A stretch of 64,000 nt of DNA from NCBI RefSeq assembly GCF_002934265.1, contig NZ_PTIX01000015.1:1-64000 (forward strand), in the 5' to 3' direction. This DNA is from Actinokineospora auranticolor. Its GTDB lineage: Bacteria; Actinomycetota; Actinomycetes; Mycobacteriales; Pseudonocardiaceae. This document shows positions 10,509-58,415 of this stretch, one piece after another. A model generated the notes under the pieces. It searched no databases and had not been told where the DNA came from. It saw only the letters and a list, made by a program, of their open reading frames with translations. Each line of letters begins with the position of its first letter. Position 1 is the stretch's first letter. Made by a program: the position numbers and the translations under genes.

Positions 10509-11888
10509 TCACGGGAGTCGGGCGGTCCAGACGAACACCCTGGTCCCGTCGACTCCCCGCGTCTGGCGCACGGAGCGGGAGCCGTCGGAAAGATCCCGCA
10601 GGACGGCCACCAGACGTGATCTGGCGACCGTGGGCGCACCGTCGTCCTGAACCGCCACCGCGAACGTGTCACCGTCGAAGTCGACGCACAGTTCGACGAG
10701 TCGGGCGTGCGCCACGGTCGTCAGCGCGTCGCGTGCGACCGCGATGATGTCGTCGGCGAGACCGGGCGGGCACATCCGGGTGATGTTGTCGGCCAGGGCC
10801 ACCCGCACCGGTGTGTCGATCACCAGCTCCGCCGCGTCGGCGGTCGCGAGCAGGCGCAGGGAGAGGGGAACGGGGTGTCGGCGGCGGGGGAACTCGGCGG
10901 CGAAGAAGTCGCGGACGCGGGAGGCGGTGGCCGTGAGCGAGTCGATGTGCTCGGTGAGGCGTTCGCGGTGCGCGGGCGGCGTACCGGTGCCGATGAGGTT
11001 CCGCAGTCCCAACCCCACCGCGAACAGGTCGCCGACCACCGCGTCGGTCAACGCGGCCACCGCCGTGTCGACTTCGTCGCGGTGCTCGGACTGGTCGTGC
11101 GCCGCGCTGGACCACGCGAACTCGATCGCTCCCGCGACCTGCCCGGCGAACGCCCCGAGGTGGCGCAGGTCGACGGGTGTGAACGGTGGTCCACCCGGGG
11201 TCCGGCCGACGGCGAGGGCGCCGGTCACCCGGTCTCCCCACCTGAGCGGCACCATGGCGACCGGACCGATCGCGCGGGCCTCCGGGTACGCCTCGGCCAG
11301 CAACGCCTTCCCCGCGCGGACCACGCGCGCCGCCAGGCTGTGCACGGGGTGCGGGGAGGTGCCCGCGGTGAGGTCGGCGGCGAGCGACCCGGTCACCGCG
11401 CGCACCCGCAACACCCCCGAGTCGGAAAGCAGCGTGAGGGTGCCGAAATCGGCCTCGGCGGCCTCGGCGGCGCGGTCGGTGAGCTGGTCGAGCGGGCGCT
11501 GGCCACCGCCGTAGAACAGTTGGACGCTCGCGCAGGCCGACGCCGCCGCCCAGCGCTCCCGCAACGCGGACTCGCGGATGTGCCGCGCGCTGTCGCGGAC
11601 CATCGCCACCGTCAGCGCGAGTGCTTCCGCCAGGGTGTCCTCGGTCGTGGCGGGCACGCCGGAGGGGGCGGCGGGCAGGCACCGCGTCGCGCGTGCGCCC
11701 GCCTCCAGGACGGCGCGGACCAGCGCCGCGGTCTCGATCACCCCGTCGGCGCCGGGAGTCGACCGCGGGTCTCCCGTCGCGCAGACCGACACCAGCGCGC
11801 TCGCACTGCTGTGGGTGATCCTGGCGAGCAAGGCCTCCCAGCGGGCGGAGCCGTGGTCGGACACCTGCTCCCGAGACGCGTTCGACAT
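10509..11888 (-). CDS. GAF-containing DosS/DevS-like pseudo-histidine kinase
   Basis: The product has 459 residues. After an N-terminal helical region, a GAF domain spans roughly residues 150-270. A segment aligned with the DosS dimerisation helix follows, where DLFAVGLGLR corresponds to the DosS stretch RLFAVGLALQ. The position of the phosphorylated His in the D-L-H-D motif reads ALTD. The N-box reads ARDALTTVAHARLV without the Mg-binding Asn, and the G1 box is DDGAP rather than DNGRG. The protein should therefore neither autophosphorylate nor bind ATP normally. It may sense a ligand or compete with a true sensor kinase. The ATG at 11888 follows GGGGA. Confidence 0.75.
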   Translation of the reverse strand: MSNASREQVSDHGSARWEALLARITHSSASALVSVCATGDPRSTPGADGVIETAALVRAVLEAGARATRCLPAAPSGVPATTEDTLAEALALTVAMVRDSARHIRESALRERWAAASACASVQLFYGGGQRPLDQLTDRAAEAAEADFGTLTLLSDSGVLRVRAVTGSLAADLTAGTSPHPVHSLAARVVRAGKALLAEAYPEARAIGPVAMVPLRWGDRVTGALAVGRTPGGPPFTPVDLRHLGAFAGQVAGAIEFAWSSAAHDQSEHRDEVDTAVAALTDAVVGDLFAVGLGLRNLIGTGTPPAHRERLTEHIDSLTATASRVRDFFAAEFPRRRHPVPLSLRLLATADAAELVIDTPVRVALADNITRMCPPGLADDIIAVARDALTTVAHARLVELCVDFDGDTFAVAVQDDGAPTVARSRLVAVLRDLSDGSRSVRQTRGVDGTRVFVWTARLP

Positions 11889-12227
11889 GACGATTCCCCA
11901 TCGCTCACGTGTCACGTGTCGGCGGGGTCACGGCCAACGATGTCAGCTTGTGTGGACCGGGTCGCTTCGTTCCACGACTCGACCATAATCGGATCACCGG
12001 CCGGGGGAACCGCCGAGCGGGTGGGTCCGTGAGCCGCGACGCGGCGGCGGTCGAGTCGCGGCGGGAGTTCGCGATGAACCCCATCACACGCGGGAGTGAA
12101 CGGGCACCGAGCGGCCAGGACCGTTTCACCGGACGTGCGCCGCGTCGGGTACGTTGCCCGCCTGACCCTGTGCGGGCTCTGCGCAACCGTCGTGCCCCCG
12201 CGGACTTCGTTCAGGAGTGGGCAGGAG
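11889..12227. other. Divergent promoter region without a gene
   Basis: These 339 bases separate the pseudo-kinase from the GAF-ANTAR gene. Open frames here are arginine-rich shadows. No good GGGAC/GTCCC palindrome is present; GTGGACCGGGTC near 11951 has a spacer that is too short. Confidence 0.5.
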
Positions 12228-12971
12228 GTGTCGCGCGCGTGGTCCACTGGTGCGCTCGTCGTGGCTGAGGCCGGTGATGACGAGGCCGACCGGGTTCGTC
12301 ACCGCGTGGTGGGGGACCTGCGCGGCGGCGGCAGCGAACTCGACGCGCTCGCGAAGGTGTGCGATGCCTGCGTCGAGTTGCTGCCGGTCGACGGCGCGTC
12401 GGTCTCGGTCATGACCGGCGACCTCGGGCGCGAATGCCTGTACGCGACCGATCGGGTCGCCGCCCGCATCGAGGCGGTGCAGTTCAGCCTGGGTGAGGGG
12501 CCGTGCTTTCAAGCGTTCGACACCAAGCGGCCCGCGCTCGCCCCGAACCTGCGCGACGTGGCCTGGCCGGTGTTCGCCGCGGAGATCGGGGCGGAGCCGG
12601 TCGGGGCCCTGTTCGGGTTCCCGCTGGTCGCCGGGGCGATCAGCATCGGCGCGCTCGACCTGTACCGGCGGACTCCGGGCTGGCTGTCGGCCGCGCAGCT
12701 GCGGGTCGCCCTGCGCCTGGTCGACGTCGCGACGCTGGTGTTGCTGGGGCTCGGGCTCGACCGAGCGGCCGGGGCGTGGACGGACCTGCCGTTGCGCCGC
12801 GCCCAGGTGCACCAAGCGGTCGGAATGCTCATCGCGGAGTTCGGCGTGTCGCCGGAGCACGCGTTGGCCCGCCTGCGCGGACACGCGTTCACCACCGGAC
12901 GCCTCGTGGACGAGGTCGCCGACGACCTCGTGTCCCGCAGGCTTCACCCCGCGGACGTCGGGGGAGCGTGA
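12228..12971 (+). CDS. GAF-ANTAR regulatory protein
   Basis: The 247-residue product has a GAF sensor domain (about residues 35-175; VKFSLGEG-like segment VQFSLGEGPC, then PVGALFGFPL). A C-terminal ANTAR RNA-binding domain follows (HQAVGMLIAEFGVSPEHAL, then ADDLVSRRLHP). ANTAR proteins usually act as antiterminators that bind paired RNA hairpins. The GTG at 12228 is chosen for its spacing from AGGAG; a GTG at 12261 is an alternative. It lies 64 bases upstream of a second protein of the same architecture. The signal and RNA targets are unknown. Confidence 0.85.
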   Translation: MSRAWSTGALVVAEAGDDEADRVRHRVVGDLRGGGSELDALAKVCDACVELLPVDGASVSVMTGDLGRECLYATDRVAARIEAVQFSLGEGPCFQAFDTKRPALAPNLRDVAWPVFAAEIGAEPVGALFGFPLVAGAISIGALDLYRRTPGWLSAAQLRVALRLVDVATLVLLGLGLDRAAGAWTDLPLRRAQVHQAVGMLIAEFGVSPEHALARLRGHAFTTGRLVDEVADDLVSRRLHPADVGGA

Positions 12972-13035
12972 TCCACCTGTGGCCGCCCGGCACGTTCTAC
13001 GCTGTTCGGGCGAAGTAGGAAAGGAGGTTCCCGTT

Positions 13036-13800
13036 GTGGAGACGCCGGGATCGGCGCGGGAGGCGCTGCTGCTGGGCGCGTTCGTGCGGATGGCCGACAC
13101 GCTGGTCGACGACTACGACGTCGTCGAGATGCTGCACGAACTCGTGGGATACTGCGTCAGCCTGCTCGACTCGGCCGCGGCCGGGCTCGTGCTGTCCGAC
13201 CAGCGCGGCGGTCTGCAGGTGCTCGCGTCGTCGACCGACGAGACCCGGCTGTTGGAGCTGTTCCAGGTCCAGATCCGCGAGGGTCCCTGCCTGGACTGCA
13301 TCGGGGCGGGCGAACCGGTCCGCGTTCCCGACCTGGCCGCCGAGCGCGCCCGCTGGCCGAGGTTCGTCCCCCAGGCGGTCTCCCGTGGCTTCGCCGCGGT
13401 GCACGCCATCCCGATGCGCCTGCGCCAGAACACCATCGGCGCCCTCAACCTCTTCGACCACGGCGTGGGTGCGATGGCCGAGCAGGACCTGCTGGTCGCT
13501 CGGGCTTTGGCCGACATCGCCACCATCGGAATCCTGCACGAACGCGCGATCCGCCGCGGTGAAGTGCTCACCGAGCAGTTGCAGACCGCGCTGAACAACC
13601 GGATCACGATCGAGCAGGCCAAGGGCGTGCTGGCGCACGCGGGCAGGCTCGACATGCACCAAGCGTTCCAGGCGCTGCGGGCCTACGGGCGCAGCCGCAA
13701 CGCCCTGGTCTCCGAAGTCGCTCACCAGGTCGTCACCGGGGTCATCACCCCGGCGGCCGTCCTGACCCTGAGCGCGCCGCCCGGGCGGGGTTCGACGTGA
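13036..13800 (+). CDS. GAF-ANTAR regulatory protein
   Basis: The 254-residue product has an N-terminal GAF domain (about residues 20-165, with the typical EGPCLDCIGAGEPV and IPMRLRQNTIGALNLF). A complete ANTAR domain lies at the C-terminus (NNRITIEQAKGVLAHAGRLD, then EVAHQVVTG). The GTG at 13036 has AAGGAGGT with ideal spacing, so the much longer upstream open frame is not used. It follows the first GAF-ANTAR gene with little identity between the two GAF domains, so they may read different signals. The role as an RNA-binding antiterminator is known for the family and inferred here. Confidence 0.92.
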   Translation: METPGSAREALLLGAFVRMADTLVDDYDVVEMLHELVGYCVSLLDSAAAGLVLSDQRGGLQVLASSTDETRLLELFQVQIREGPCLDCIGAGEPVRVPDLAAERARWPRFVPQAVSRGFAAVHAIPMRLRQNTIGALNLFDHGVGAMAEQDLLVARALADIATIGILHERAIRRGEVLTEQLQTALNNRITIEQAKGVLAHAGRLDMHQAFQALRAYGRSRNALVSEVAHQVVTGVITPAAVLTLSAPPGRGST

Positions 13801-14249
13801 CGACCTCGTTCCGACGCGGCTCCTCCCCGGTGGGGGCTGAACCACCCCGCGGGCCCGGCCTCGCCCATCGGGTTGGCGGGATCCCGGGAACCGGGCGAGG
13901 AACGGCAGCGCGGCGACCACGACCGCGGGAGGTTCCAGCCACCACCTCACGTCGGTGTGCGGTCGTCGGTGATACCGCCCGCGAGGAGGTAGGCCGCCGC
14001 CCGGGTCGCTGCTGAGCCGACCGCTTCGCCGCCGCCACCGCTCCTCCCGGGGCGCGCACCGAGCCCGGTACCCGCCCTCGTTCGAGGTGCGGTGATCGGG
14101 GCAGTGCCGAAGGTCACCGCCGGTCGAGGTCCCGCGACCACTGCCCGACACCCGCGCGAGTGGCGACGATCGAGAGGTGGGAGCAGCGCGTCCGCCCCGG
14201 GCGCGCCACTGGCGGAGGACGGGTTGGTCCGTCCGGTGTGGAGGATGCG
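13801..14249. other. Intergenic region with a possible terminator
   Basis: No gene is visible in these 449 bases. CCTCGCCC (13859-13866) and GGGCGAGG (13893-13900) can pair in a long-looped hairpin about 60 bases after the GAF-ANTAR stop and may end that transcript. Open frames on both strands have the composition of out-of-frame GC-rich DNA. Confidence 0.4.
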
Positions 14250-14843
14250 ATGCGGGTTCGGGACTTGATGAGCAGGCCGGTCTTCAGCGCCCGACCGGGG
14301 AGCACGGTGCGCGAGGTGGTCACGGTGATCACCGAGCACGGCTACGCGAGCCTGCCGGTCGTGGACGACCTGGGTCGCGTGGTCGGTGTGGTGGGCGAGC
14401 CCGAGTTGCTCCGCCACGTGGGCGACCGGCAGGTCTCTCCCGACGCGCCGGTGTCGTCGGTGATGGTTCGCCCGGTCGAGGTCGCGCACCCGGCCGACGA
14501 CGTGTCGACGGTCGCGGAGACGATGCTGCGGACCGGGCTGCGGTGCCTGCCGGTTGTGGAAGAGGGTTTGCTCGTCGGTGTGGTCGCCCGCCGGGACCTG
14601 TTGCGCTCCATGGTCCGCGATGACGACGTCATCGCCGCCAAGGTGCGCGCCCTGCTCGACGACTACGCGGGCAGCAGGCGCCACTGGCGGGTCGAGGCCG
14701 ACGACGGGCGGCTCGTCGTGACCGGCGAGTTCGCCGACGAGGCCGAGCGCGGCCTGGTCGTCGCCCTGTGCCGCACCGTCCCGGGCGTTCGCGAGGTCCG
14801 GTTGTCGGCGCTCGCCCCCACTTCGTCCGGCTGGGACGACTGA
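14250..14843 (+). CDS. CBS-pair and BON domain protein
   Basis: The 197-residue product has two CBS motifs. The first begins VRDLMSRPVFSARPGSTVRE and includes YASLPVVDDLGRVVGVV; the second begins SVMVRPVEVAHPADDV and includes LRCLPVVEEGLLVGVVAR. A C-terminal BON domain follows (about residues 130-190, ending TVPGVREVRLSAL). CBS pairs usually bind adenosyl ligands, and BON domains often associate with lipids or other proteins. A CBS protein (Hrp1) is one of the strongest DosR-regulon products in mycobacteria. The ATG at 14250 follows GTGGAGGA and starts exactly at the CBS domain. A related gene follows at 15069. Confidence 0.9.
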   Translation: MRVRDLMSRPVFSARPGSTVREVVTVITEHGYASLPVVDDLGRVVGVVGEPELLRHVGDRQVSPDAPVSSVMVRPVEVAHPADDVSTVAETMLRTGLRCLPVVEEGLLVGVVARRDLLRSMVRDDDVIAAKVRALLDDYAGSRRHWRVEADDGRLVVTGEFADEAERGLVVALCRTVPGVREVRLSALAPTSSGWDD

Positions 14844-45086: not shown

Positions 45087-45242
45087 ATGGAATGGGTCCG
45101 CCGCCACCGCCGTCGAGTGCCGGGCAGCTGGTTCCGCACCACCACCGTCCGCAGCCACCACCGCAGCCGGTCGCGCCTGCTGCCGCTCGCCGGGATCGTC
45201 ATCGCCGTGCTGGTCATCCTCCTGCTCGTCGTGCTGTTCTAG
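45087..45242 (+). CDS. Small single-helix membrane protein, 51 residues
   Basis: The ATG at 45087 after GGGAGA encodes a basic N-terminus (MEWVRRHRRRVPGSWFRTTT). It ends in one strongly hydrophobic helix at the C-terminus (LPLAGIVIAVLVILLLVVLF). The basic, then hydrophobic, composition differs from random GC-rich frames. It would sit in the membrane with a cytoplasmic basic tail. Its stop overlaps the end of the converging regulator gene by 4 bases. The function is unknown. Confidence 0.65.
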   Translation: MEWVRRHRRRVPGSWFRTTTVRSHHRSRSRLLPLAGIVIAVLVILLLVVLF

Positions 45243-47431
45243 TCGACCGCCGCCCGGGCCTCCGGTTCCAGCGCGAGCCGTGCGCCGCCCTCGCCCGCGA
45301 CCACCGGGTTGACGCCGATGTCGAGCGCGTCGGCGGTGGCCCACAGCTCCAGCGCCAGCCGCGGCTCGCCCCGCTCGGCGGCCACGTTGGCCAGCCCGGT
45401 CAGGGCGCGGGCCAGCTCGTACCGGCTCCCGGCGCGCTCGGCCAGGTCGGCGGCCTCGGTGTAGGCGCGGGCGGCGTCCTCCGGCAGCCCCGCGCGGAAG
45501 TGCACCCAGGCCAGGCAGTTGAGCCCCATCGCGGTGTCGACGGGGATCTGCGCGGCGTCCTTCGCCGCGCGGGCCAGCTCCATGGCCTCGTCGAATCGCC
45601 CCATCGCGGTCAGCGCCAGGGCGAGCCCGCGCTGGGCGATGACGACGTTGCGGGTGCGCCCGGTTCGCCGGTACGCGTCCAACGCGACCCGCAGACCGTC
45701 CGCCGTCTCGTCGGGCACGCCCTGGTAGAGCCGCACCCAGGCCAGGCTCGACAGCGCGTCGGTCTCCCCGTGGTCATCGCCCGCCTGGGCGAACCGCACG
45801 GCGGCGCGGCTGTGGCAGTCGGCCGCCTCGTCGAGCCTGCCGGACTCGATGTGCGCCATGCCGAGGCTGTTGAGGATCCGCCCGGCGGCGGCCTGGTCCT
45901 TGGCCGCCTCGACGGTGCGCAGCGCGGCCCGGTGCGTGGCGACCCACGGCTCGAAGAGCTTGTCGTGGAAGAAGAACGGCCGCAGCGCCATCGCCAGCTC
46001 CCAGCAGCGGTCGGTGCCCGCGGTCAGCTCGGTCAGCCGCGCCAGCGTGTACGTGTGCGCGCGCAACCAGAGCAGCGCGCCCGCGGCGTCGGCGAACGGC
46101 AGCGCCCGGGGGCGGTGGACCTCGACCGCGGGCCGGGTCCGGTGCGGTTCGAGTAGCTCGTCGGCGGCCAGGACGGTGCCCAGGACGTGGTCGACGAGCC
46201 GAAACCAGGCGGCCTCCCGGGTCTCGTCGCCGATCTCGGGCAGCACGTACCGCTCGGCGAACGCGCGGACCAGGTCGTGCACCTCGATGTCGCCGCCCTC
46301 GGCGCGGGTGACCAGGTGGGCGTCGTGCAGCTTGTCCACCAGCCGCTCGACCTCGGGCACGGTCAGGTCCGCCAGGGCGGCCGCCGCGCCGGGGGTGAGC
46401 GCGGCGGGCGGGTGCAGCGCGGTGAGGCCCAGCAGGAACTGGGCCCGCACGGGCAGCGCGCGGTAGGAGAGCAGGAACGCGGCGGCGACGCTGCGCTCGC
46501 CGTCGTCGAGCGCGTCGAGCGGGGTGGGCTCCCGCGCCATCCGGTCGAGGAACCGGGCGGCCGTCCACCCGCCCGCCGACACCTGGGCGGCCGCGATCCG
46601 GATGGCCAGCGGCAACCCGCCGCACCGGCGCACGATCTCACCCACCGCCGGGTCCCCGCGCTCGGCCGACGCGCGGGCGACGGCGTGGAACAGGCTCTCC
46701 CCGTCGGGCTGGCTGAGCATCCCCAACGGCACCCGCCAGGCCTCGTCGAGGGCGGCGAGCCTGCGCCTGCTGGTGACCAGGACGCGGCACCCGGGGGAGT
46801 CCGGGATGAGCGGCGCGACCTGCGCGGCGCTGCGGGCGTTGTCGAGGACGACCAGCACCCGCCGTCCGTGCAGGACGGACCGCAGCAGGGCGACCCGGGC
46901 GTCCGGGTCGGCGGGCACGCGCTCGACGTCGAGCATCACCAGCAACCGCTGCGCGGACTCGGCGGCCTGCGCCTCGGCCGCGCCGGGGGTGTCGCCCCGG
47001 AGGTCGAGGTAGAGGGACCCGTCGGGGAACCCGGTGCGCGCCCTGGCCACCGCGGCGAGCGCCAACGCGGTCTTGCCGACCCCGGCGAGTCCCGTCAGCA
47101 GGCAGACGGCCCCGCCCGACCGCCGGTCCAGGAACTCCGCCACCCGCGCCAATTCCCTTTCCCGCCCGAGGAAGAACCGCGTGGACCCCGACACCCCGGG
47201 CAGCCGGGGCGCGCGGGAGGCGATCAACTCGCTTTCCGCCAACCCCAGCAACGCCCCCTCGGCCCCCAACGCCTGGTCCACGGCGACCGCGAACGCCACC
47301 GTCGGCCGCGTTTGCCCGGTCTCGACCTTGCTTATGTGCCCCTTGGTGAACCCCACCCCCTCGCCGAGGGCGGCCGCGGTCATACCCGCGACCATCCGCC
47401 GCCGCCGCAACTCCGGTCCGAACGCAGTCAT
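45239..47431 (-). CDS. XRE-HTH, NB-ARC ATPase and TPR regulator
   Basis: The 730-residue regulator has an N-terminal XRE helix-turn-helix (about residues 4-58, ELRRRRMVAGMTAAALGEGV). An NB-ARC/STAND ATPase follows with Walker A LTGLAGVGKTAL, Walker B RVLVVLDNARS, sensor RVLVTSRRRLAAL and GLPLAI. C-terminal TPR repeats (about residues 480-720, LAWVRLYQGVPDETADGLRV and similar) complete it. This is the AfsR-like architecture without the SARP domain. The ATG at 47431 is chosen because the HTH begins there. Such proteins regulate secondary metabolism or differentiation. A possible 15-residue peptide lies just upstream. Confidence 0.93.
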   Translation of the reverse strand: MTAFGPELRRRRMVAGMTAAALGEGVGFTKGHISKVETGQTRPTVAFAVAVDQALGAEGALLGLAESELIASRAPRLPGVSGSTRFFLGRERELARVAEFLDRRSGGAVCLLTGLAGVGKTALALAAVARARTGFPDGSLYLDLRGDTPGAAEAQAAESAQRLLVMLDVERVPADPDARVALLRSVLHGRRVLVVLDNARSAAQVAPLIPDSPGCRVLVTSRRRLAALDEAWRVPLGMLSQPDGESLFHAVARASAERGDPAVGEIVRRCGGLPLAIRIAAAQVSAGGWTAARFLDRMAREPTPLDALDDGERSVAAAFLLSYRALPVRAQFLLGLTALHPPAALTPGAAAALADLTVPEVERLVDKLHDAHLVTRAEGGDIEVHDLVRAFAERYVLPEIGDETREAAWFRLVDHVLGTVLAADELLEPHRTRPAVEVHRPRALPFADAAGALLWLRAHTYTLARLTELTAGTDRCWELAMALRPFFFHDKLFEPWVATHRAALRTVEAAKDQAAAGRILNSLGMAHIESGRLDEAADCHSRAAVRFAQAGDDHGETDALSSLAWVRLYQGVPDETADGLRVALDAYRRTGRTRNVVIAQRGLALALTAMGRFDEAMELARAAKDAAQIPVDTAMGLNCLAWVHFRAGLPEDAARAYTEAADLAERAGSRYELARALTGLANVAAERGEPRLALELWATADALDIGVNPVVAGEGGARLALEPEARAAVD

Positions 47432-47878
47432 GTTCGCCCCATCCGTGTGCCGGGAGGCCCGGTCCGACCCCCATGCCGGACCGGGCACCACCCGATTTCA
47501 GCCGAAGAGCGTGCTCAACCACAGGATCATAGCGTGCGTGTGCATTTCCCTATTCCCTTCCACGAGGACCGACTAACCAACTCGACCTACCGTGGATCCC
47601 CGGTGAGGCCGCCAGTCGACTGGTTGAGACAATGGTGAACCCGCGTCGAGATAAGTGGAAGGAGTTTCTTGTCGGGAAAGTGTTTCGTTCGAGGAAACGC
47701 CCGCGACCTGCGGTTTTGTCAAGACCCGGTAAACGAGTGGAAACGATCGCCCGTCGCCCCGCGGCTCATCGTCGCTTCGGACTGAACGTCGCGGAGTCGC
47801 AGGTTGGAGAATCGCGGGGTGCGCGCGCCGGGTTTCCGGTATCTGACAATGGGCGTGACGGATTGTCGAACAGCGTTG
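47432..47878. other. Intergenic region, lower GC, possible short peptide
   Basis: These 447 bases separate the NB-ARC regulator from the amidohydrolase, which lies upstream on the same strand. The GC content is visibly lower (runs such as AGTGGAAGGAGTTTCTTG). A forward frame from 47632 begins MVNPRRDKWKEFLVGK but runs into shadow-type sequence. The only candidate gene is the peptide at 47498-47545. Confidence 0.4.
47498..47545 (-). CDS. Possible 15-residue hydrophobic peptide
   Basis: A reverse ATG at 47545 preceded by GGAAGGGAATAGGGAA encodes MHTHAMILWLSTLFG and stops 66 bases before the start of the XRE-NB-ARC-TPR regulator. The peptide is short and hydrophobic, as are signalling peptides read by TPR-containing regulators in other bacteria. 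Such short frames also arise by chance, so this is only a candidate. Confidence 0.25.
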   Translation of the reverse strand: MHTHAMILWLSTLFG

Positions 47879-49194: not shown

Positions 49195-49695
49195 ATGGGT
49201 AGCGGTGGCGACGTGACGGACGGGATCGTGGCCGCCTGGGCGCGCGAGCTGCCCGACATCGACGGCCCCGCCCTCGCCCTGGCCAAGCGCGTCGCGCGGT
49301 TGGCCGCCGTGCTCGACGCCGCCACCGTCGCCCAGCTCACCGCCCTGGGGCTGACCAAGGCCGAGTACGAGATCCTGGTGACCCTGCGCGCCGCGGGCGA
49401 CCCGTTCACGCTGCGCCCGTCGGAGCTCTCCGCCCGCCTCCGGCTGACCTCCGGCGGCACCAGCAACGTCCTGCGCAGGCTCACCGACACCGGCATGGTC
49501 GTGCGCGACGCCGACGAGACCGACGCCCGCGGCCTCTGGGTGCGCCTGACCCCCGCGGGCGCCGGTCGCGCCGAGGCCGCCGCCCGCGCGGTCAACCGCG
49601 CCACCGTCAAGCTCCTGCGCGACGTCCCGCCCGCCACGGCCGAGTCGGCCTCCGGCCACCTGCGCGACGTCCTCATCGCCCTCGACGACATCTGA
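49195..49695 (+). CDS. MarR-family transcriptional regulator
   Basis: The 166-residue product has the winged helix of MarR proteins: GLTKAEYEILVTLRAAGD, then LRPSELSARLRLTSGGTSNV as the recognition helix region, and the wing DADETDARGLWVRLTPAG. It is divergent from the amidohydrolase, with a strong palindrome between the genes. It probably represses that gene and itself in the absence of the amidohydrolase substrate. An in-frame GTG at 49213 is an alternative start. Confidence 0.93.
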   Translation: MGSGGDVTDGIVAAWARELPDIDGPALALAKRVARLAAVLDAATVAQLTALGLTKAEYEILVTLRAAGDPFTLRPSELSARLRLTSGGTSNVLRRLTDTGMVVRDADETDARGLWVRLTPAGAGRAEAAARAVNRATVKLLRDVPPATAESASGHLRDVLIALDDI

Positions 49696-49957: not shown

Positions 49958-52900
49958 ATGGTGAGCGAGATACGCCTGTCCACCCGGCTGACCATCGCGG
50001 CGTGGCGGCGCCACCTGGGGTCGGGGGGCGGGCCGCTGACCGAGAGCGGGGCGTGGCGGCCGGGGGTCCTCAAGGGCGGGCTGTGGTTGGACCTCACCGC
50101 CGTGGAGTTCGCGCACCTCGGTGCCCTGGCACGGATCCTGCTGCTGCTCGACGCGGCGGTGCGCGACGGGGTCGGCGCCACGGTCGTGCTGCCGACGGGT
50201 GTGTTCGGCGCGCGCGACCGGTGGTTGGCGGACACCGGCGCGGCACCGGTGCCCGACCAGTTCCTGCGCCGCGCGGCTCGCCAGGCCCGCTCCCGCGCCG
50301 AAGCGCGCGGATTCCTGCGCCATTCCGGTTTCGACGACGCACTACGCGCGCCGCACTGGCCCCCGGGCGCCGTGACGGTGCTCGACGCGGAAGGCGCCAC
50401 CGCGGAAACCCCGCCCACCCCCGCCACCGTGCCGGTCGACGGCGGTATCCGGTTCCCCGGCGCGCCGCAGGAACGCAGGGTGCTGCCGTTCCAGTGGCTG
50501 CACCACGACGCGGGCACGGGCCTCGGCCTGCCGGAGGCCCTGGCGGGGATCACCCGGCGGCTGTCGGACATGGGCCTGCCCGCGGCGGACGCGTGGGCGA
50601 TCACCCACGCGCTGGTCGTGGAACTGGTGGACAACATCGGCAAGCACGCCAGGGTCGGCCCGTCCGACCCGCCGTACGCGCTGGTGGCCGCGATCCTGGT
50701 CAACGAGGGCCTGTACGCGACCCGGCGCACCGACCTGCCCCGGTCGGGCGCGGCGCTGGCCGACGTGCTGCGCGAGGGCGGCGACCGCCGGGTGCTGGAC
50801 CTGCTGGTGGGCGACTCCGGCACCGGGCTGGTCGCGCGCAGCGCCTCGGCACCGGCGGACGAGGCGGGCGACGCGATCCTGGCCGCCTTCGACCGCAAGC
50901 ACGCCGCGGGCGTGCCGGTGCGCCGCGAGGGCAACGGCCTGTGGCGGGTGGGCAGGCTGGCCAGCGGCTACCGCGGCCTGGTGCAGGTGACCACGGCGGG
51001 CACCACCGCGGGCAAGTCCTACCTCGACCCCGACACCGAGGAGCACGTGTTCGAGGGCGACCAACTCGTCGCCCCGGGCACCCTGGTCGAGGCGTCGCTG
51101 CTGATCGCGGGCACCCCCGAGCCGGTCCGGGGCAAGCCGTGGCGCGGGCGCCCGGCGTCCACAGTGGACGACGACGGTCCGATGGCGGTGGTGCCGTGCG
51201 ACCTCGACGGCGCCGACGGCATCGGCGACGCGGACCGGACCTGCCTGCGCAAGGCGGTGCGGGCCAACAACCGCGCGGGCGTGGTGGTCGTCGTCCCGGT
51301 GACCCCGCCGCGGCTGTCCGACAGCGCCCTCAAGACCGCCCTGGCCCGCGTGCTGGACACGGTGAGCGCGATCCCCGACCAGGTGCCGCTGGCCGTGGTG
51401 CTGCCCGACGCGGGCGTGCGCATCCTCGACCTGTGCGTGGCGGGCATCAACTCCCACGAGGACGCCCAGTCGTGGTGGCCCGCGCCGCGCAGCGCGGTCC
51501 TGGTCATGGGCGCCACCGGCACGCCGCGGTGGTGCGGCGGACCCGCGCGGCTGCGCGCGGTGCTCGACGCGCTCACCGAACTCGGCGGCGCGCTGACCCA
51601 CCAGGTGCTCCGGTCCCGCACCGGCGCGTCCGAGGTGGCGCACCAGGAGCTGTGCGCCTGGCTCGGCCGCTACCCGCACCTGCTGTCGGTGACCGACACC
51701 GGGATCGCCCTGCGGGTGTCCCCCGGCGACGCGGCGCACGCCATGCGGCACTGGGCGCGGGGCCGGTTGGCCGAGACCATCCGCGACGCCGGACCCGGTG
51801 TCACGGCGGGCCACTTCCGCACCCCCACCCTGCGCCACACCAACCGCTGGATCCGGGTCCGCACCCTGCTCGACGAGGTGGTCGGCACCGCGACCGCGGG
51901 CTGGGTGCTGGCCCGCATGGTCGAGGAACGCGCGGACCTGCACGGACCGGAGAACCGGGCGGTGGCCCGCGTGGTCAACACCGCCACCGAGCCGCTGGCG
52001 GGCCAGCTCAGCGAGTGCCTGTGGATCGGCGGCCGGTTCTACGCCATGCCCGGTGAGCTCGACCTCGACGGCGTCGCGGTCAGCGAGCAGGTCCCGCAGC
52101 ACGCGGAAGTCGTGCTGTGCGCGGACATCCTGTCCACGGAGAACACCGTGCGCCGGGCCGCCGCGGCCATCGCCGCCCGGCAGGCGGTCGTGGTCGCGGT
52201 GGCCTGCGTCGTCGACAGCCGCGACCACGACCGGCAGATCCGCATCTTCAACCGCGACGTGCCGGTGGTGTCGCTGGTGTCGGTCGACATCAGCGCCGGT
52301 CCCACCCCCGAGAGCCCGAAACCGGTCGACGTCGACCCGCTGCTGCTGGAGCCGGTGCGCCCGCGCGCGGCCCGCCGCGCCTACCTCGACGAGGAGACCC
52401 TGCTCGGCTGGCTGGCCCGCGACCCGGACTGGCTGCGCCTCGGGCACTTCGACCGCGCGCCGCGCAACCGGCACTTCAGCGCCTACCTGCGGTTCGACCG
52501 GCTGCTGCGCACCCCGGCGGTGGCCACCCGGATGCGCGACGCGGTGCGCGGCGCGCTCGACGACACCGCCGGGCTCTGGCGCGCGGGCCTGTCCGCCGAC
52601 CCGTTCGCCACCTGCGAGATCTGGTACCCCGAGGCCCCCGACGACTTCTCCGCCCTGCTGGACCTGGTCGGCGACGCCCTGGCCGCCGACGGCCGCCGGG
52701 TCACCCACCGGCGGCTGGTGCCGCGCGCCGTGGCGGGCACCCGGTGGAGCTACCCGACCGCGCTGGACGTCGACGCCCCGCCGGGCGCGGTCGTCGCCGT
52801 CGACGCCGGGTCGCTGACCGGCAACTCCATCGTCCAGCTCATCCGCCTGGCCGTCTCGGCGGGGGCCACCGCGGTGGTGGTGATCGTGGCGCTCAACCAG

Positions 52901-54679
52901 CTCGACGACCGCGACGCCGACGCGATGCTCGCCCTCAGCTCCATGCGCCCCGACGACGGCGGCACGCCGGTGCCGGTGCAGGTCCGGTTCCTGGCCAACA
53001 GCAGCCTCACCGGCCTCAGCGTGCGCAACTGCGCGTTGTGCGAGACCCGCGACCGCGCCGACGAGCACCTCCGGACCGCCCCGGCGGTGCTGCGCTCGCA
53101 CGTGCGCGTGCTGCGCGAGCGGACCCGGCTGCGGCCACTGCGCGAGGGGTTCGGCACCCCGCCGACCGACCTGTTCGACGTGCCAGTCAACGGCACCGAC
53201 CTCGCCGACTACCTGCGCTGGCGCACGCTGCTCGACCGCGCGCTGCGGGTCACCGAAGCGCGCCAGACGGTGGTGGACAAACTCTCCGGCCTCACCCGCG
53301 TCACGCACGTCGGCCCGGGCGGCACGTGGTCGCGGGCCAACCTGGTGCGGCTCATCGCCGCAGAGCAGCAGTGGCTGAAGCTGCCCCCGCTGCGCCACGC
53401 CGCCCCCCGCGCCCTGCTCGGCGAGGTGTGCGCGACGATCCTCGACGAGCCGCCCACCGCGCTGGCCTGGCTGCGCGCCCAGGCCGTCATGGTGATCGCC
53501 GCCGCCGACCCCGCCAACCTGGTGGGGCGGCTGCCCCGGCTGCTCGCGCTCACCGTGGACGAACCGGTGATGATCAACCAGCTGCTGCTGGAGTGCTACC
53601 GGCTGACGCTGCGCCCCGCCGTGGACTCGCCGGTGGACCACGACGCGCTGCGGCTGTGCCTGGACCGCTGCCGCGACCGGCTCGACGAGCTGATGGTCGA
53701 CGACCGCGACCCCGCGTCGATCGCGGGCCACCGGGCGCTGGTCGACCAGATGCGCTCGATCCTCGACGACCGGGACCGCCCGGCGCCCACCGACCCGCAG
53801 GAGGCGTGGCACCGGCTGCGGCGGGACTACAAGCCCTACGTCGAGGCGCACAACATGGAGTCGATCCTGCTGCGCGTGCGCGACCACGTCGAGGACCTGC
53901 CCGGCGCGCGCCCCACCCCCGAGCGCACCAAGGAGGCGCTGGCGGACTGGGACCGGTGCGCGCGCCACCTCGGCGAGAAGGCGATGCCGAACCTGCCCGC
54001 GCTGGTCGGGATCCTGCAGGGCGAGTACGTCGCCGACCGGATCGGCACCCAGGAGCAGCGGGCGCTGGTCGCGGTGGCCGACGGGGCGGGCGTCGCGGCG
54101 CTGCACCAGGTGCAGAACCTGCTGCACGAGGTCACCGGGCAGTGGCTGCCGACCAACCCGGGCTGGTGCGCCACGCGCGAGGAGCTGCTGCGCAGGCTGC
54201 GCTGGTGGCACCGGGTCTTCATGGACCCGCACGCCGACGGCGAGGCCCCCGCGCTGCTGGTCGGCCTGGTGGGCTCGGTGCCGACCTGCCCCGCCGACCA
54301 CGTCGAGCGGCTGCTGGCGACCCGCGCGCCCGGGCCCACCGCGCACCGGGGTGAGCCCATCGGCCGCACCGCGCGGGTGTTCTGCCCGGGACCGCTGCTC
54401 GAGGCCGTGGTCGCCCACGCGCTGGACAACATCACCCACCACGCGGCCCCCGGCGGTCAGCGGCCCCGCGTCGAGGTCGACTACCGGCTCGGCGAGCACT
54501 TCCTGGAGCTGCTGGTGCGCAACACCGGCACCCGGCCGCGGTGGCCCGCGGGCCGCGGGCTGCGCGCGTTGAACGAGCGGCTGCGCCCGTTCGGCGGCTC
54601 CCTGGTCGGCAATGCCGAGGACGACGAGGACTGGACTTTTACCGCGAACGTGACACTTCCGCTGTGGCGAGGAGCGTGA
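49958..54679 (+). CDS. 1573-residue protein with two GHKL ATPase and two PRTase-like motifs
   Basis: From the N-terminus there is a STAS-like segment (residues 43-80, LWLDLTAVEFAHLGALARIL). A GHKL ATPase domain follows (N-box ELVDNIGKHA at 222-231, G1 GDSGTG at 285-290, G2-like GNGLWRVGRLASGY near 325). A phosphoribosyltransferase-like loop (VVLCADILSTENT, about 718-730) and a second (VVAVDAGSLTGNSIV, about 945-960) come next, then a long helical region. A second GHKL domain closes the protein (HALDNITHHA about 1487-1496, then GRGLRALNERLRPFGGSL). No phospho-acceptor His box is visible. It lies 6 bases upstream of a receiver-kinase gene. The PRTase assignments are tentative. Confidence 0.8.
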   Translation: MVSEIRLSTRLTIAAWRRHLGSGGGPLTESGAWRPGVLKGGLWLDLTAVEFAHLGALARILLLLDAAVRDGVGATVVLPTGVFGARDRWLADTGAAPVPDQFLRRAARQARSRAEARGFLRHSGFDDALRAPHWPPGAVTVLDAEGATAETPPTPATVPVDGGIRFPGAPQERRVLPFQWLHHDAGTGLGLPEALAGITRRLSDMGLPAADAWAITHALVVELVDNIGKHARVGPSDPPYALVAAILVNEGLYATRRTDLPRSGAALADVLREGGDRRVLDLLVGDSGTGLVARSASAPADEAGDAILAAFDRKHAAGVPVRREGNGLWRVGRLASGYRGLVQVTTAGTTAGKSYLDPDTEEHVFEGDQLVAPGTLVEASLLIAGTPEPVRGKPWRGRPASTVDDDGPMAVVPCDLDGADGIGDADRTCLRKAVRANNRAGVVVVVPVTPPRLSDSALKTALARVLDTVSAIPDQVPLAVVLPDAGVRILDLCVAGINSHEDAQSWWPAPRSAVLVMGATGTPRWCGGPARLRAVLDALTELGGALTHQVLRSRTGASEVAHQELCAWLGRYPHLLSVTDTGIALRVSPGDAAHAMRHWARGRLAETIRDAGPGVTAGHFRTPTLRHTNRWIRVRTLLDEVVGTATAGWVLARMVEERADLHGPENRAVARVVNTATEPLAGQLSECLWIGGRFYAMPGELDLDGVAVSEQVPQHAEVVLCADILSTENTVRRAAAAIAARQAVVVAVACVVDSRDHDRQIRIFNRDVPVVSLVSVDISAGPTPESPKPVDVDPLLLEPVRPRAARRAYLDEETLLGWLARDPDWLRLGHFDRAPRNRHFSAYLRFDRLLRTPAVATRMRDAVRGALDDTAGLWRAGLSADPFATCEIWYPEAPDDFSALLDLVGDALAADGRRVTHRRLVPRAVAGTRWSYPTALDVDAPPGAVVAVDAGSLTGNSIVQLIRLAVSAGATAVVVIVALNQLDDRDADAMLALSSMRPDDGGTPVPVQVRFLANSSLTGLSVRNCALCETRDRADEHLRTAPAVLRSHVRVLRERTRLRPLREGFGTPPTDLFDVPVNGTDLADYLRWRTLLDRALRVTEARQTVVDKLSGLTRVTHVGPGGTWSRANLVRLIAAEQQWLKLPPLRHAAPRALLGEVCATILDEPPTALAWLRAQAVMVIAAADPANLVGRLPRLLALTVDEPVMINQLLLECYRLTLRPAVDSPVDHDALRLCLDRCRDRLDELMVDDRDPASIAGHRALVDQMRSILDDRDRPAPTDPQEAWHRLRRDYKPYVEAHNMESILLRVRDHVEDLPGARPTPERTKEALADWDRCARHLGEKAMPNLPALVGILQGEYVADRIGTQEQRALVAVADGAGVAALHQVQNLLHEVTGQWLPTNPGWCATREELLRRLRWWHRVFMDPHADGEAPALLVGLVGSVPTCPADHVERLLATRAPGPTAHRGEPIGRTARVFCPGPLLEAVVAHALDNITHHAAPGGQRPRVEVDYRLGEHFLELLVRNTGTRPRWPAGRGLRALNERLRPFGGSLVGNAEDDEDWTFTANVTLPLWRGA

Positions 54680-54685
54680 CACCAG

Positions 54686-56356
54686 ATGGTCCACCGCATC
54701 CGGGGTTTGATCGTCGACGACGTGCCCGAGAACCTGAAGAGCGTCAGCACGCGGCTCAACCAGTACCTGCGGGAGCAGGGCTGGGCGGTCGACTGGACGA
54801 TGCTCGACGACCCCGACGCCGCGCACGCCGCCATCTCCGGGGCGACCGCGGGCGGCGGCTTCCACCTGCTGGTCATCGACCTGCTGTTCGAGCGCACGAC
54901 CGGGGGCGACGAGGCCCGCGGCCTGGAGTTGGTGGCGCTGGCCCGGGCCGCGCTGCCGCACTCGTACGTCTTCGTCATCAGCGAGGGCGACCGGCACCGG
55001 CACAGCCTCTTCGCGCGTGCCATGGAACTCGGCGCGAACACCGCGGTGCGGCGGTGGGAGTTCAGCGTCGAGTCGCCGTTGACGAGCCCGGCGGCCATCG
55101 CCACGGACATCCGCACGTACCTGCTCTACAACGGGACCGTCGAGGAGATCGGGGTGGTGGTCGACGAGAGCGACCCGGCCGTGGTGACGCTGCTGCACGA
55201 GGTCGGCAACCCGACCATCGCCCAACTGCACCGCCAGGTCCTGGAAGCCGACAACGAGACCGCCGACGTGGTGCGGGTGCGCCACCTCGCGCCCGGCGTC
55301 TCCGGGGCGCGGATCTGCGCCACCGAGGCCCCGCTGCGGCACGGGACGACCGCCCACCACGTCCTCAAGCTCAGTCGCGACCTCGACGGCCTGCGCGAGG
55401 AGACCGCCCGCGCGGCGCGCGCGCCGAAGGTGATGTCGTCCAGGTTCGTCGTCCAGCCGCACCGGGCGGTCGGGCCGGTCAACGGTTGGTGGGCCACGGG
55501 GTCCGTGTGCGAGCGGGGAGTGACCACCGCCCGCCAGTGGCTGGGCACCGGACCCGCGCCGGAACGGGCGGAGGACGCCTTCGCCACCCTGTTCACCGAG
55601 GCGCTGTCGCCGATGTACTGGGCGACCGCCCGCGACGAGTCCGGCGACCCGATGGACGCGTTGCGCCTTCCGTTGCGGCGCAGGCAACTCGTCCTGCGGG
55701 CCGTCGACGAGCTCTGCCCCGTCCTCACCCGACCGGACGGCGGCGGCCTCGGCGACACCACCCGGCTGCGGGCCGATCTCACCGCGTACGCCGTGGAAGG
55801 CCGACTCGCCGGCGTCTACGTGCCGCGGTGGCCCGACAAGCGCTGGAGCACCCACGCGCACGGCGATCTGCACTGCGGCAACATCCTCCTGCTGCCCGGC
55901 AGGCACCCCGCCCCGATGCTGATCGACTTCAGCGACTTCGGCCCGGCGCACTGGGCCACCGACGCGGCCCGACTGGTCGCCGACCTCGTGGTCCGGGTGG
56001 TCGACGAGGGCCCGGAGTCCTTGTTCTTCACCGGGTTCGCCACCTGGCGCGCGCTCGCCGCCGCCGTCGGGGACCTGTCGACCGACCTCGTGGCGGTCAC
56101 CGACAGCCCGGCCACCAACGCCACGCTGGCCGCCCTGCGGTGGATCACCGGGCACCTGCGCGAGATCTGCCCGCCGCTGACCAGCGAGGTGGACTTCGCC
56201 GCGCACCGCTGGCAGTGGCACATCGCCTTCTGCCTGTACCTGCTGCGGTCGACCTACCACTACGAGGTGCCCGGCCCCAAGCGCGCCTTGGCCCTGGTCG
56301 CCGCGCACGACCAGCTCCGCGCGGGCGCCGAAGCGCTCACCGGCCATGGTCGGTGA
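54686..56356 (+). CDS. Receiver domain fused to an APH-type kinase domain
   Basis: The 556-residue product starts with a response-regulator receiver domain (LIVDDVPENLKS; phospho-acceptor Asp65 in LLVIDLLFE; FVISEG; the usual Lys replaced in AVRRW). The C-terminal half is an aminoglycoside-phosphotransferase-like kinase: loop LAPGVSGARI, Lys228 in HVLKLSRD, Glu in LREETARA, catalytic HGDLHCGN (392-399) and metal-binding DFSDFG (Asp414). All kinase residues are kept. The genes on both sides are linked by a 6-base gap and an 11-base overlap. The upstream GHKL protein could drive phosphorylation of Asp65, and the kinase may act on the STAND partner; both are inferred. Confidence 0.85.
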   Translation: MVHRIRGLIVDDVPENLKSVSTRLNQYLREQGWAVDWTMLDDPDAAHAAISGATAGGGFHLLVIDLLFERTTGGDEARGLELVALARAALPHSYVFVISEGDRHRHSLFARAMELGANTAVRRWEFSVESPLTSPAAIATDIRTYLLYNGTVEEIGVVVDESDPAVVTLLHEVGNPTIAQLHRQVLEADNETADVVRVRHLAPGVSGARICATEAPLRHGTTAHHVLKLSRDLDGLREETARAARAPKVMSSRFVVQPHRAVGPVNGWWATGSVCERGVTTARQWLGTGPAPERAEDAFATLFTEALSPMYWATARDESGDPMDALRLPLRRRQLVLRAVDELCPVLTRPDGGGLGDTTRLRADLTAYAVEGRLAGVYVPRWPDKRWSTHAHGDLHCGNILLLPGRHPAPMLIDFSDFGPAHWATDAARLVADLVVRVVDEGPESLFFTGFATWRALAAAVGDLSTDLVAVTDSPATNATLAALRWITGHLREICPPLTSEVDFAAHRWQWHIAFCLYLLRSTYHYEVPGPKRALALVAAHDQLRAGAEALTGHGR

Positions 56357-58415
56357 GGTCAGCAATGTGGTCACGGGGCACGCGGGCGCGGTCCTGCAGG
56401 TGGGATCCGTGGTGCGGGCGCGGGAGGTGAACGTGTGGTCGGGGGCGCGGATCCCGGTGCCCCGGCAGCTGCCACCGGACACCCCGGCCTTCACCGGCCG
56501 CGACTGGGAGTTGCGCACACTGGACTCCGCCTTGGCCGACGGGACCAGGCTGTGCGTGGTGACCGGTCCGCCCGGGGTGGGCAAGACGGCGTTGGCGGTG
56601 CGGTGGGCGCACCGGGTCGAGCACCGCTACCCCGACGGGCAGCTCGTGGTGAACCTGCGCGGCTTCGACCGCGACGGCAGGCCGTTGCCGCCCGCGTCCG
56701 CGTTGGACGACTTCCTCCTCGCCCTCGACGTCCCACCCGGACGGATCCCGGTGGACCTCGACGCCAAGGCCGGGCTGTTCCGGTCGCTGGTGGCCGAGCG
56801 GCGCGTGCTGGTGCTGCTGGACAACGCCCGGGACTCGGCCCAGGTGCGGCCGTTGCTGCCCGGCGCGCCGGGGTGCGCGGTGGTCGTGACCGGTCGCAAC
56901 GTGCTGTCCGGACTGCTCACCGAGGACGGTGCCGCGTTGGTCCGGGTGCGACCCCTCACCCGCGCGGGCGGCGCGCGCATGCTGGCCGCCGCCGTGCCCG
57001 GCGCGGACTCCGACACGGCGCTGTCCCGCCTGGTGGACCTGTGCGCCGGGCTTCCGTTGGCGTTGCGCATTGTCTCCCAGCGCTTAGTCTCCGACCCGCA
57101 CACGGCGCTCGCCGATCTCGCCGACGAGCTCGGGAACTCCCGCACGCGCCTGGCCGGGTTCGAGGTCGACGAGGAGTCCGTGGCGATCCGCGCGGTGTTC
57201 TCCTGGTCCTACGACATCCTCCCGCCGGACGCCGCCCGGCTCTTCCGCGCCGCGGGCCGCCACCCGGGTCCGCACTTCAGCCTGGACACCGCCGCCGCGT
57301 ACGCCGACCTGCCTCTCCCGCGCGCCCGCCGGGCCATGGCCACCCTCACCGCCGCGCACCTGGTCGAGACCACCGGGCGGGACCGGCACCAGTTCCACGA
57401 CCTGCTCCGCTGCTACGCCGAGGACCGCGCCGCCACCGAGGCACCGGCGCGCCGCCGGGCCTCCGTCCGCAGGGCGGTCACCGGGTACCTGGCCGCCGCG
57501 GAGGCGGCGTCCCGGTTCGTGCGGCCGGTGCGGCCCCCGCTGAGCACCGAGCCGGGGCGGGAGTTCTCCGACTACGACGACGCGGTGGCCTGGTTGGACG
57601 GTGAGCGCCCGAACTTCCTGCCGGTGGTGCGGATGGCCGCGCGGGAGGGGCTGCCGGAGCTGGGTTGGCGGCTGGCGGGCGCGCTGTGGCCGTACTTCGA
57701 CCTGCGCAAGCCGTGGGAGGAGTGGACCGCGCTGCTGCGGGTGGGCCTGGCGTGCGCGCTGACCGCCGGGGACCGGTTCGGTGAGGGCCTGATGCGCCAC
57801 GACCTCGCCTTCGGGTTCCGCCACCGCGGCGAACCGGCCGAGGCGGTGGTGGAACTGGAGCACGCGCTGGCGGCGTTCCGCGCGGTGGACGGGACCTGGG
57901 GCATCGGGTCCTGCCTGAACTGGCTGGGCGACCTGCGGCGGGCGCTGCGCCAGTTCGAGCCCGCGCTGGAGTCGTGCGAGCGCGCGCTGGGGGAGTGGCG
58001 GCTGGCGGGGGACCTGGTGGGGGAGACGTGGGCGCTGCGGAACCTGGGACTGATCTACCGGGACCTGGGTGACGACGAACGGGCGCTGGCCGCGTTCGCC
58101 CGCGCCCGCGAGTTGTTCGAGCAGCGGTCCGACTCCCGGGGGCTGGCGTCGGTGCTGCGCAACGAGGGGATCATCCTGCGCCGGACGGGGGAGTTGGCGC
58201 GATCCCGGGAGACCCTGGAACGCGCGCTGGCGATCCACCGGGCGCGCAACGACGAGTGGAACGAGGCGTGCTCGCTGGAGCGGCTGGGGGAGACCAGGTA
58301 CGCGACGGGGGACACGGACGCGGCGGTGGCGGCGTGGCGGCGGGCACTGGAGATCTTCGAGAAGTTCCACGACCACCGCGCCACCCGGGTACGACTGCTC
58401 CTAAGTGGACAGTAG
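56346..58415 (+). CDS. NLR-like STAND ATPase (NB-ARC-TPR) with amyloid-like N-terminal motif
   Basis: The 689-residue product begins with VSNVVTGHAGAVLQVGSVV (residues 5-23), a glycine/valine repeat with Q-V-G. It resembles RHIM-like bacterial amyloid signalling motifs. No DNA-binding domain is present. NB-ARC follows: Walker A GPPGVGKT (74-81), Walker B RVLVLLDNARD, then GLPLALRI. C-terminal TPR repeats occupy about residues 440-680 (EAVVELEHALAAFRAVDGTW and similar). It overlaps the kinase gene by 11 bases and ends the operon. The architecture is that of an immune-type signal-transducing ATPase in which the N-terminus would seed a downstream partner. Confidence 0.88.
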   Translation: MVGEVSNVVTGHAGAVLQVGSVVRAREVNVWSGARIPVPRQLPPDTPAFTGRDWELRTLDSALADGTRLCVVTGPPGVGKTALAVRWAHRVEHRYPDGQLVVNLRGFDRDGRPLPPASALDDFLLALDVPPGRIPVDLDAKAGLFRSLVAERRVLVLLDNARDSAQVRPLLPGAPGCAVVVTGRNVLSGLLTEDGAALVRVRPLTRAGGARMLAAAVPGADSDTALSRLVDLCAGLPLALRIVSQRLVSDPHTALADLADELGNSRTRLAGFEVDEESVAIRAVFSWSYDILPPDAARLFRAAGRHPGPHFSLDTAAAYADLPLPRARRAMATLTAAHLVETTGRDRHQFHDLLRCYAEDRAATEAPARRRASVRRAVTGYLAAAEAASRFVRPVRPPLSTEPGREFSDYDDAVAWLDGERPNFLPVVRMAAREGLPELGWRLAGALWPYFDLRKPWEEWTALLRVGLACALTAGDRFGEGLMRHDLAFGFRHRGEPAEAVVELEHALAAFRAVDGTWGIGSCLNWLGDLRRALRQFEPALESCERALGEWRLAGDLVGETWALRNLGLIYRDLGDDERALAAFARARELFEQRSDSRGLASVLRNEGIILRRTGELARSRETLERALAIHRARNDEWNEACSLERLGETRYATGDTDAAVAAWRRALEIFEKFHDHRATRVRLLLSGQ

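Follow-up and report, generated by a model that had tools for sequence, protein, structure and literature searches.

The contig NZ_PTIX01000015.1 of Actinokineospora auranticolor carries, in the 64,000-nucleotide (nt) stretch analyzed here (positions 1 to 64,000; the window), three consecutive genes that we call P1 (49958-54679), P2 (54686-56356), and P3 (56346-58415); these genes and all features mapped in them lie on the plus strand. P1 encodes a multidomain giant of 1573 amino acids, P2 a 556-amino acid protein that joins a receiver to an APH/TCAD9-type kinase, and P3 a 689-amino acid NB-ARC/TPR STAND ATPase of an AfsR/HaaT-like paralogue family. The stop codon of P1 is 6 nt from the ATG of P2, and the ATG of P3 lies 11 nt inside P2, as laid out in the first-pass annotation of the locus. 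A MarR-like open reading frame (ORF; 49195-49695) on the left and a minus-strand XRE-cupin-like gene on the right, both recognized by eye, border the trio, which is therefore probably a single transcription unit. Neither flank showed a sigma-70-like promoter or a terminator consensus, a result that is uninformative at this GC content. The same annotation took the three genes to be one system. Comparison of gene neighborhoods bears out the linkage of P1 and P2, which is kept across five families and in all ten other loci found, but not the membership of P3, since a P3-like gene was matched nearby in only two of the ten. We conclude that P1-P2 is probably an undescribed two-gene stress-signaling unit, and P3 an addition in this strain.

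The ten other loci (L numbers below) comprise nine obtained by scanning a three-row P1 alignment against 84,980 species genomes, three of them in genomes already matched by a P2 search, plus L059. They come from scattered soil actinobacteria of five families: three from Amycolatopsis, three from Streptomyces, and one each from Actinomadura, Planosporangium, Actinocrinis, and another genus of the window's own family. In every one, P1 is directly upstream of P2, and the two genes are -8 to +6 nt apart in the window and in the nine other loci for which starts could be assigned. P1 of L065 has no start because of a contig end, and L066 (9980-16429, on the complete chromosome of Amycolatopsis sp. 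2-2), in which both pair genes are frameshifted, was excluded from the alignments; residue counts below thus refer to ten aligned rows, window included. Identities of 24-50% across families rule out a chance ORF reading for both P1 and P2. Pairwise distances of P1 and P2 in the aligned rows are correlated with r = 0.986, a value reached in none of 10,000 permutations, and all three supported clades of the P1 tree reappear in the P2 tree. Given so tight a pairing, P2 is likely the partner of P1. Amycolatopsis kentuckyensis groups with Planosporangium, a member of another family, in both trees, a pattern consistent with joint transfer or with old paralogy.

Distribution of the pair is patchy. 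When 390 genomes of the family were searched with P2, six gave a match, its own included; the protein is full length (or split over two frames) in its own genome and four others, and only the kinase motif is matched in the sixth. Among 15 other genomes of the genus, a shallow scoring gave neither a P2 match nor a full-length P1 match. Besides P1 itself, 100 relatives and 296 genomes of the class yielded only matches of about 70-93 residues at the C-terminal GHKL domain, and a first scan of genome contigs with P1 alone gave no relative; because the first-look scoring was shallow (2-5 candidates per genome), the P1 misses in relatives and class genomes carry little weight. P2 likewise matched, besides itself, only through the kinase motif or other short stretches in the same 100 and 296 genomes and, as an alignment, in 326 genomes of the phylum. 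Distant relatives will have escaped the contig scan, as it picked up the nine P1 loci through two short patterns.

We assigned the domains of P1 from profiles and from AlphaFold models, which were made for this protein only. Together these give the order STAS-like, anti-sigma-type GHKL, Rossmann-like and winged-helix-like, tandem orotate phosphoribosyltransferase (PRTase)-like, helical, and histidine-kinase-type GHKL. A STAS-like domain without a conserved phospho-serine (residues 1-125, 49958-50332) precedes the first GHKL domain (GHKL1, residues 170-390, 50465-51127), which is of the SpoIIAB/UsfX anti-sigma-kinase type; the second (GHKL2, residues 1440-1573, 54275-54676) is of the histidine-kinase CA type. 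The two GHKL domains and the PRTase-like character proposed by the first-pass annotation are upheld: both GHKL folds are firm in the models, the STAS call being weaker. In the N-terminal model, structural matches mostly span residues 174-389, and in the C-terminal model residues 5-187 and 848-981; the second PRTase domain, the helices, and residues 1-170 were consequently barely probed, and we make no negative claim about their folds. Taken alone, P1 reaches Pfam families only below threshold (HATPase_c_2, E = 0.026; PRTase, E = 0.05), PDB profile matches to its C-terminal part are all weak (E of 0.13 or more), and GHKL1 compares weakly with histidine kinases by hhalign.

The best structural matches of the model of residues 1-390 are SpoIIAB/RsbW-type anti-sigma kinases and stressosome STAS proteins. 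Compared with the former, the P1 operon has no sigma factor or separate antagonist, and the STAS-like domain has no conserved phospho-serine. The STAS-then-GHKL order, the anti-sigma-kinase fold, and an E...N box also recall CapK/CapS and VapKSC. One study (PMC13373217) reports or infers that CapK and VapK, in response to DNA damage, phosphorylate STAS partners; CapK is activated by single-stranded DNA (ssDNA), and vapKSC conferred protection from one phage. P1 differs from these proteins in being far longer, with PRTase domains and a second GHKL, and in having a receiver-kinase rather than a STAS protein as its partner; no STAS-domain partner with a conserved Ser is present in the operon among the matches listed for P1-P3 (neighbors were scanned in part). 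Of the residues in GHKL1, E222 and N226 are kept in seven and W180 in all of the eight rows with the region, and we do not equate W180 with W68, the aromatic ssDNA-binding residue of CapK.

Between GHKL1 and the PRTase-like domains lies a segment that, by the secondary structure of the model and hence weakly, appears Rossmann-like and then winged-helix-like (residues 405-590, 51170-51727). Csa3 was its first-ranked Foldseek match (E = 4.3e-3), with a poor superposition; as comparison of its profile with PDB and Pfam gave nothing convincing, a Csa3/CARF identity is not claimed.

PRTase-like domain 1 (residues 595-800, 51740-52357) has the loop xD...TEN, and domain 2 (residues 820-1045, 52415-53092) is of the orotate PRTase type, with an invariant CxxC. 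The P1 sequence itself matches TIGR01367 (pyrE_Therm) at E = 1.9e-6, below the cut-off of that family. Pribosyltran is found in seven of the ten rows at E up to 1 (best 4.3e-9), and it exceeds the cut-off over two stretches each in three Streptomyces homologues, with none in L068; through such homologous sequences, the predicted PRTase assignments are firm. Domain 2 aligned with a PyrE-like protein over 158 columns (hhalign E = 1.4e-4), with the same CxxC in both, and its further profile matches are weak, as are the hhalign comparisons of domain 1 with domain 2 (E = 0.011) and with the PyrE-like protein. The likeness extends to PurR, which also has a winged-helix-like segment just before its PRTase domain. 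Orotate PRTases and PurR differ in that the P1 domains are tandem, sit inside a GHKL protein, and have degenerate loops for phosphoribosyl pyrophosphate (PRPP).

Such domains could be enzymes. The PRTases of P1 would then make an unusual nucleotide that P2 phosphorylates, giving a second messenger or toxic nucleotide of the kind proposed for Ter-type systems, for which nucleotide-making PRTases have been described (PMC7824862). The kept T/S-G-x-T/S loop of domain 2 (6/10 rows), its domain-wide similarity to the PyrE-like protein, and the retention of the kinase catalytic Asp in nine of ten rows speak for this explanation, as does the setting of the Planosporangium pair among apparent pyrimidine-biosynthesis genes. 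But the PRPP-binding acid pair is broken in all ten rows in domain 2 and in nine (all except L065) in domain 1, and no HAD or other Ter component appears among the matches listed for the scanned proteins. Judged by the PRPP loop, with its acid pair and TGxT, P1 would not be predicted to be an active type I PRTase, and we consider the enzymatic explanation unlikely. The locus concerned (L068, 4420-22030, Planosporangium mesophilum) has, as named from translations, dihydroorotase- and PyrE-like genes on one side of the pair and a carbamoyl-phosphate synthase-like gene on the other.

In the models, the C-terminal third of P1 continues with an all-helical region (residues 1046-1355, 53093-54022) and a helical hairpin (residues 1356-1425, 54023-54232) that is loosely DHp-like, its helices having no conserved His; GHKL2 follows. 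P2 begins with a receiver domain (residues 1-130, 54686-55075) containing D11, D12, and D65, and R123 in place of the usual Lys. By profile the receiver matches NtrC1 (E = 3.2e-4); Response_reg was matched in five of ten rows at E up to 1 (best 7.8e-4, below cut-off), and a comparison with one response regulator by hhalign was weak (E = 0.01). The receiver Asp and the acidic pair are kept in all ten rows and the S/T in nine, and the Lys is Arg in all ten.

A CA-type GHKL in one protein and a receiver in the next are reminiscent of atypical or hybrid two-component proteins, and could point to a classical phosphorelay in which P1 would autophosphorylate on His and pass the phosphate to D65 of P2. 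The hairpin before GHKL2, which some histidine-kinase matches loosely reach from about residue 1356 (4biy and 8a7f, 189-191 residues aligned at a root-mean-square deviation of 8-11), and the invariant receiver Asp agree with that. Yet no column from 1356 to 1422 has His in at least five of ten rows, and where the window has H1383 the other rows have R, S, T, N, P, or D. Just past the hairpin, H1425 is His in six rows; H1298 is His in nine but is separated from the N-box Asn downstream by 193 residues. Together with the altered G1 box of GHKL2 and the Lys-to-Arg exchange in the receiver, this makes the phosphorelay suggested by the first-pass annotation doubtful in its textbook form, which we regard as quite improbable. 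P1-P2 further departs from two-component proteins in its output, an APH kinase.

That kinase (residues about 200-545 of P2, 55283-56320) contains K228, E239, HGDLH, N399, and D414. The complete APH kinase fused to a receiver, and its guessed place in the ternary-complex-associated group, are both supported, as TCAD9 (8.5e-13, 48.7 bits against a cut-off of 40) and APH (1.2e-6) exceed their Pfam cut-offs in the window's P2. At E up to 1, TCAD9 is found in nine and APH in seven of ten rows; scored singly, L065 (32.0 bits) and L063 (37.9 bits) fall below the TCAD9 cut-off. The kinase lysine, glutamate, Asn, and Asp are kept in all ten rows, and HGDLH has Q in place of D in L070 and F in place of H in L059. 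P2 thus resembles the TCAD9 kinases of vWA-MoxR ternary systems but is fused to a receiver. No MoxR or vWA family appears among the matches listed for P1-P3 (for P3, the best 25 of 29 families) or among the best 25 listed for eight neighbor proteins of homologous loci. A search for the TCAD9 family gave weak matches in 93 of 148 genomes, and only the P2 genome had matches over the cut-off; besides P2, the single such place is a canonical TCAD9 kinase in a 1396-amino acid ORF with an NTPase-like part (L019, contig C19, 3059-4237).

P3 is a STAND ATPase, as proposed, with NB-ARC and TPR over cut-off. In domain order it is like AfsR and HaaT, from which it differs in having no called SARP DNA-binding domain and in scoring below the NCBIfam cut-offs of both (for AfsR, 287.7 bits against 1430). 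A regular-expression match near its N terminus (GHAGAVLQVGSV, 56367-56435) resembles the RHIM-like BASS3 motif (PMC8086366). P3 matches 26 further places in its own genome at E = 1.3e-34 or better, and an N-terminal [VL]-Q-x-G motif like its own was seen by eye in 6 of the 16 paralogue stretches listed, which makes the proposed amyloid role of the P3 N terminus reasonable as a prediction. The six paralogues, with VVQAG-type motifs, are L074, L077, L080, L081, L084, and L098, and hint at a possible shared amyloid-signaling network in one cell. Another XRE/NB-ARC/TPR gene of the P3 family occupies 45239-47491 (minus strand), about 2.5 kb before the operon.

These features allow the three genes to be read as an immune system, in which P1-P2 would sense infection and P3, an NLR with an amyloid motif, would execute or relay cell death. 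P3 overlaps P2, and TCAD9 is named with vWA-MoxR conflict systems (PMC10910872). A STAND NTPase is the nearest large neighbor of the pair in the window, L059, and L062. In L059, a P3-like gene (10891-14292) lies 7 nt beyond P2 on the opposite strand, convergent with the pair; it encodes a TIR/HATPase_c_4/NB-ARC fusion and adjoins a stand-alone TIR gene. L062 has a divergent XRE-nSTAND1-WD40 gene upstream of the pair, and a like gene was seen by eye in L066. A rough, post hoc estimate with assumed backgrounds puts the probability of such neighbors arising by chance (3/9 loci) at 0.0006 to 0.03. The second locus with a P3-like gene is L069, where it is about 3 kb upstream of the pair with two ORFs between.

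On the other hand, no STAND neighbor was seen in six of the ten other loci (judged from translations, with part of the genes scanned; contig ends cut short two of the six), and P3, as one of a large paralogue family, may be a chance neighbor of P1-P2; NB-ARC matches number 38 to 86 per genome in the four genomes counted. PADLOC gave no match to P1 or P2. When the window was scanned in six frames with the regular expression, the single copy of the motif was that of P3 itself, with no adjacent effector bearing a matching one. Plasmids searched with P1 and P2, viral contigs searched with alignments, and phages searched with a P2 homologue gave no match either. An immune-type switch is a possibility rather than a finding, an immune role being weakly supported, and we consider the three-gene system unlikely. 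Downstream of the pair in L062 (17107-19107) is a protein like GT20 trehalose-phosphate synthases that carries an additional part at its N terminus.

No description of the P1-P2 gene pair was found in the published literature searched, subscription papers being mostly outside the reach of the search, and Pfam, NCBIfam, and PADLOC hold no family naming it. The domains of the pair are all known ones; within the reach of the literature and family-library searches, their combination is new. We class P1-P2, as a variant, with signaling and conflict-type kinase modules.

Degenerate PRTase domains have a precedent as ligand sensors in PurR. Receivers also occur apart from histidine kinases: Kaur et al. 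(PMC7159879) list a few APH kinases and sporadic receivers among vWA-system effectors without histidine kinases, and a related study (PMC8195603) predicts receivers to be nucleotide-responsive switches without them. Because of these precedents and the CapK/VapK-like head, we tentatively favor, at a strength just short of probable, a two-protein unit in which P1 is a nucleotide- or DNA-damage-sensing scaffold that gates the APH kinase of P2 via the receiver. P1 would sense through its STAS-GHKL head, which is like that of the DNA-damage kinases and anti-sigma kinases, and its two degenerate PRTase-like domains would most likely bind a nucleotide, PRPP, or a pyrimidine ligand, as sensors and not enzymes. 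Binding of ligand and ATP would change the shape of P1, which would act on the P2 receiver by contact or by GHKL phosphorylation without a histidine intermediate. The receiver would then switch the kinase on or off, and phosphorylation of a protein or small molecule by the kinase would set off the output. The likely recruited output in this strain would be the overlapping P3, with its amyloid-type N terminus; at the other loci the output would lie outside the operon. To the observed domain content, pairing in every locus found, and conserved residues, we thereby add by inference co-transcription, ligand, direction of signal, the P1-to-P2 step, kinase substrate, and output.

Several observations weigh against the scaffold reading. 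GHKL1 is absent from L069 and degenerate in L070 and L059, three of the nine rows able to show it, so its catalysis is not essential everywhere. In GHKL2, RNTGT or a variant replaces the usual D-x-G-x-G (G1) box. The kinase of L070 lacks the catalytic Asp, and the position of this Actinocrinis locus differs between the P1 and P2 trees, without full support. Finally, the link to CapK and VapK is one of domain order and fold only.

In a bolder form, which we think unlikely, P1-P2 would be a bacterial stress or immune module of a new class, combining tandem orotate PRTase-like nucleotide-pool sensors and a CapK-like sensor of ssDNA or damage with a receiver-gated APH kinase that works without phospho-histidine and could be coupled to various STAND ATPases. 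If the scaffold model, in this or the plainer form, is true, nucleotide-salvage enzymes were turned into sensors that control a kinase via a receiver, outside classical two-component signaling; the homologues in streptomycetes and Amycolatopsis offer concrete material for testing both the input (nucleotides, ssDNA) and the output (the kinase substrate).

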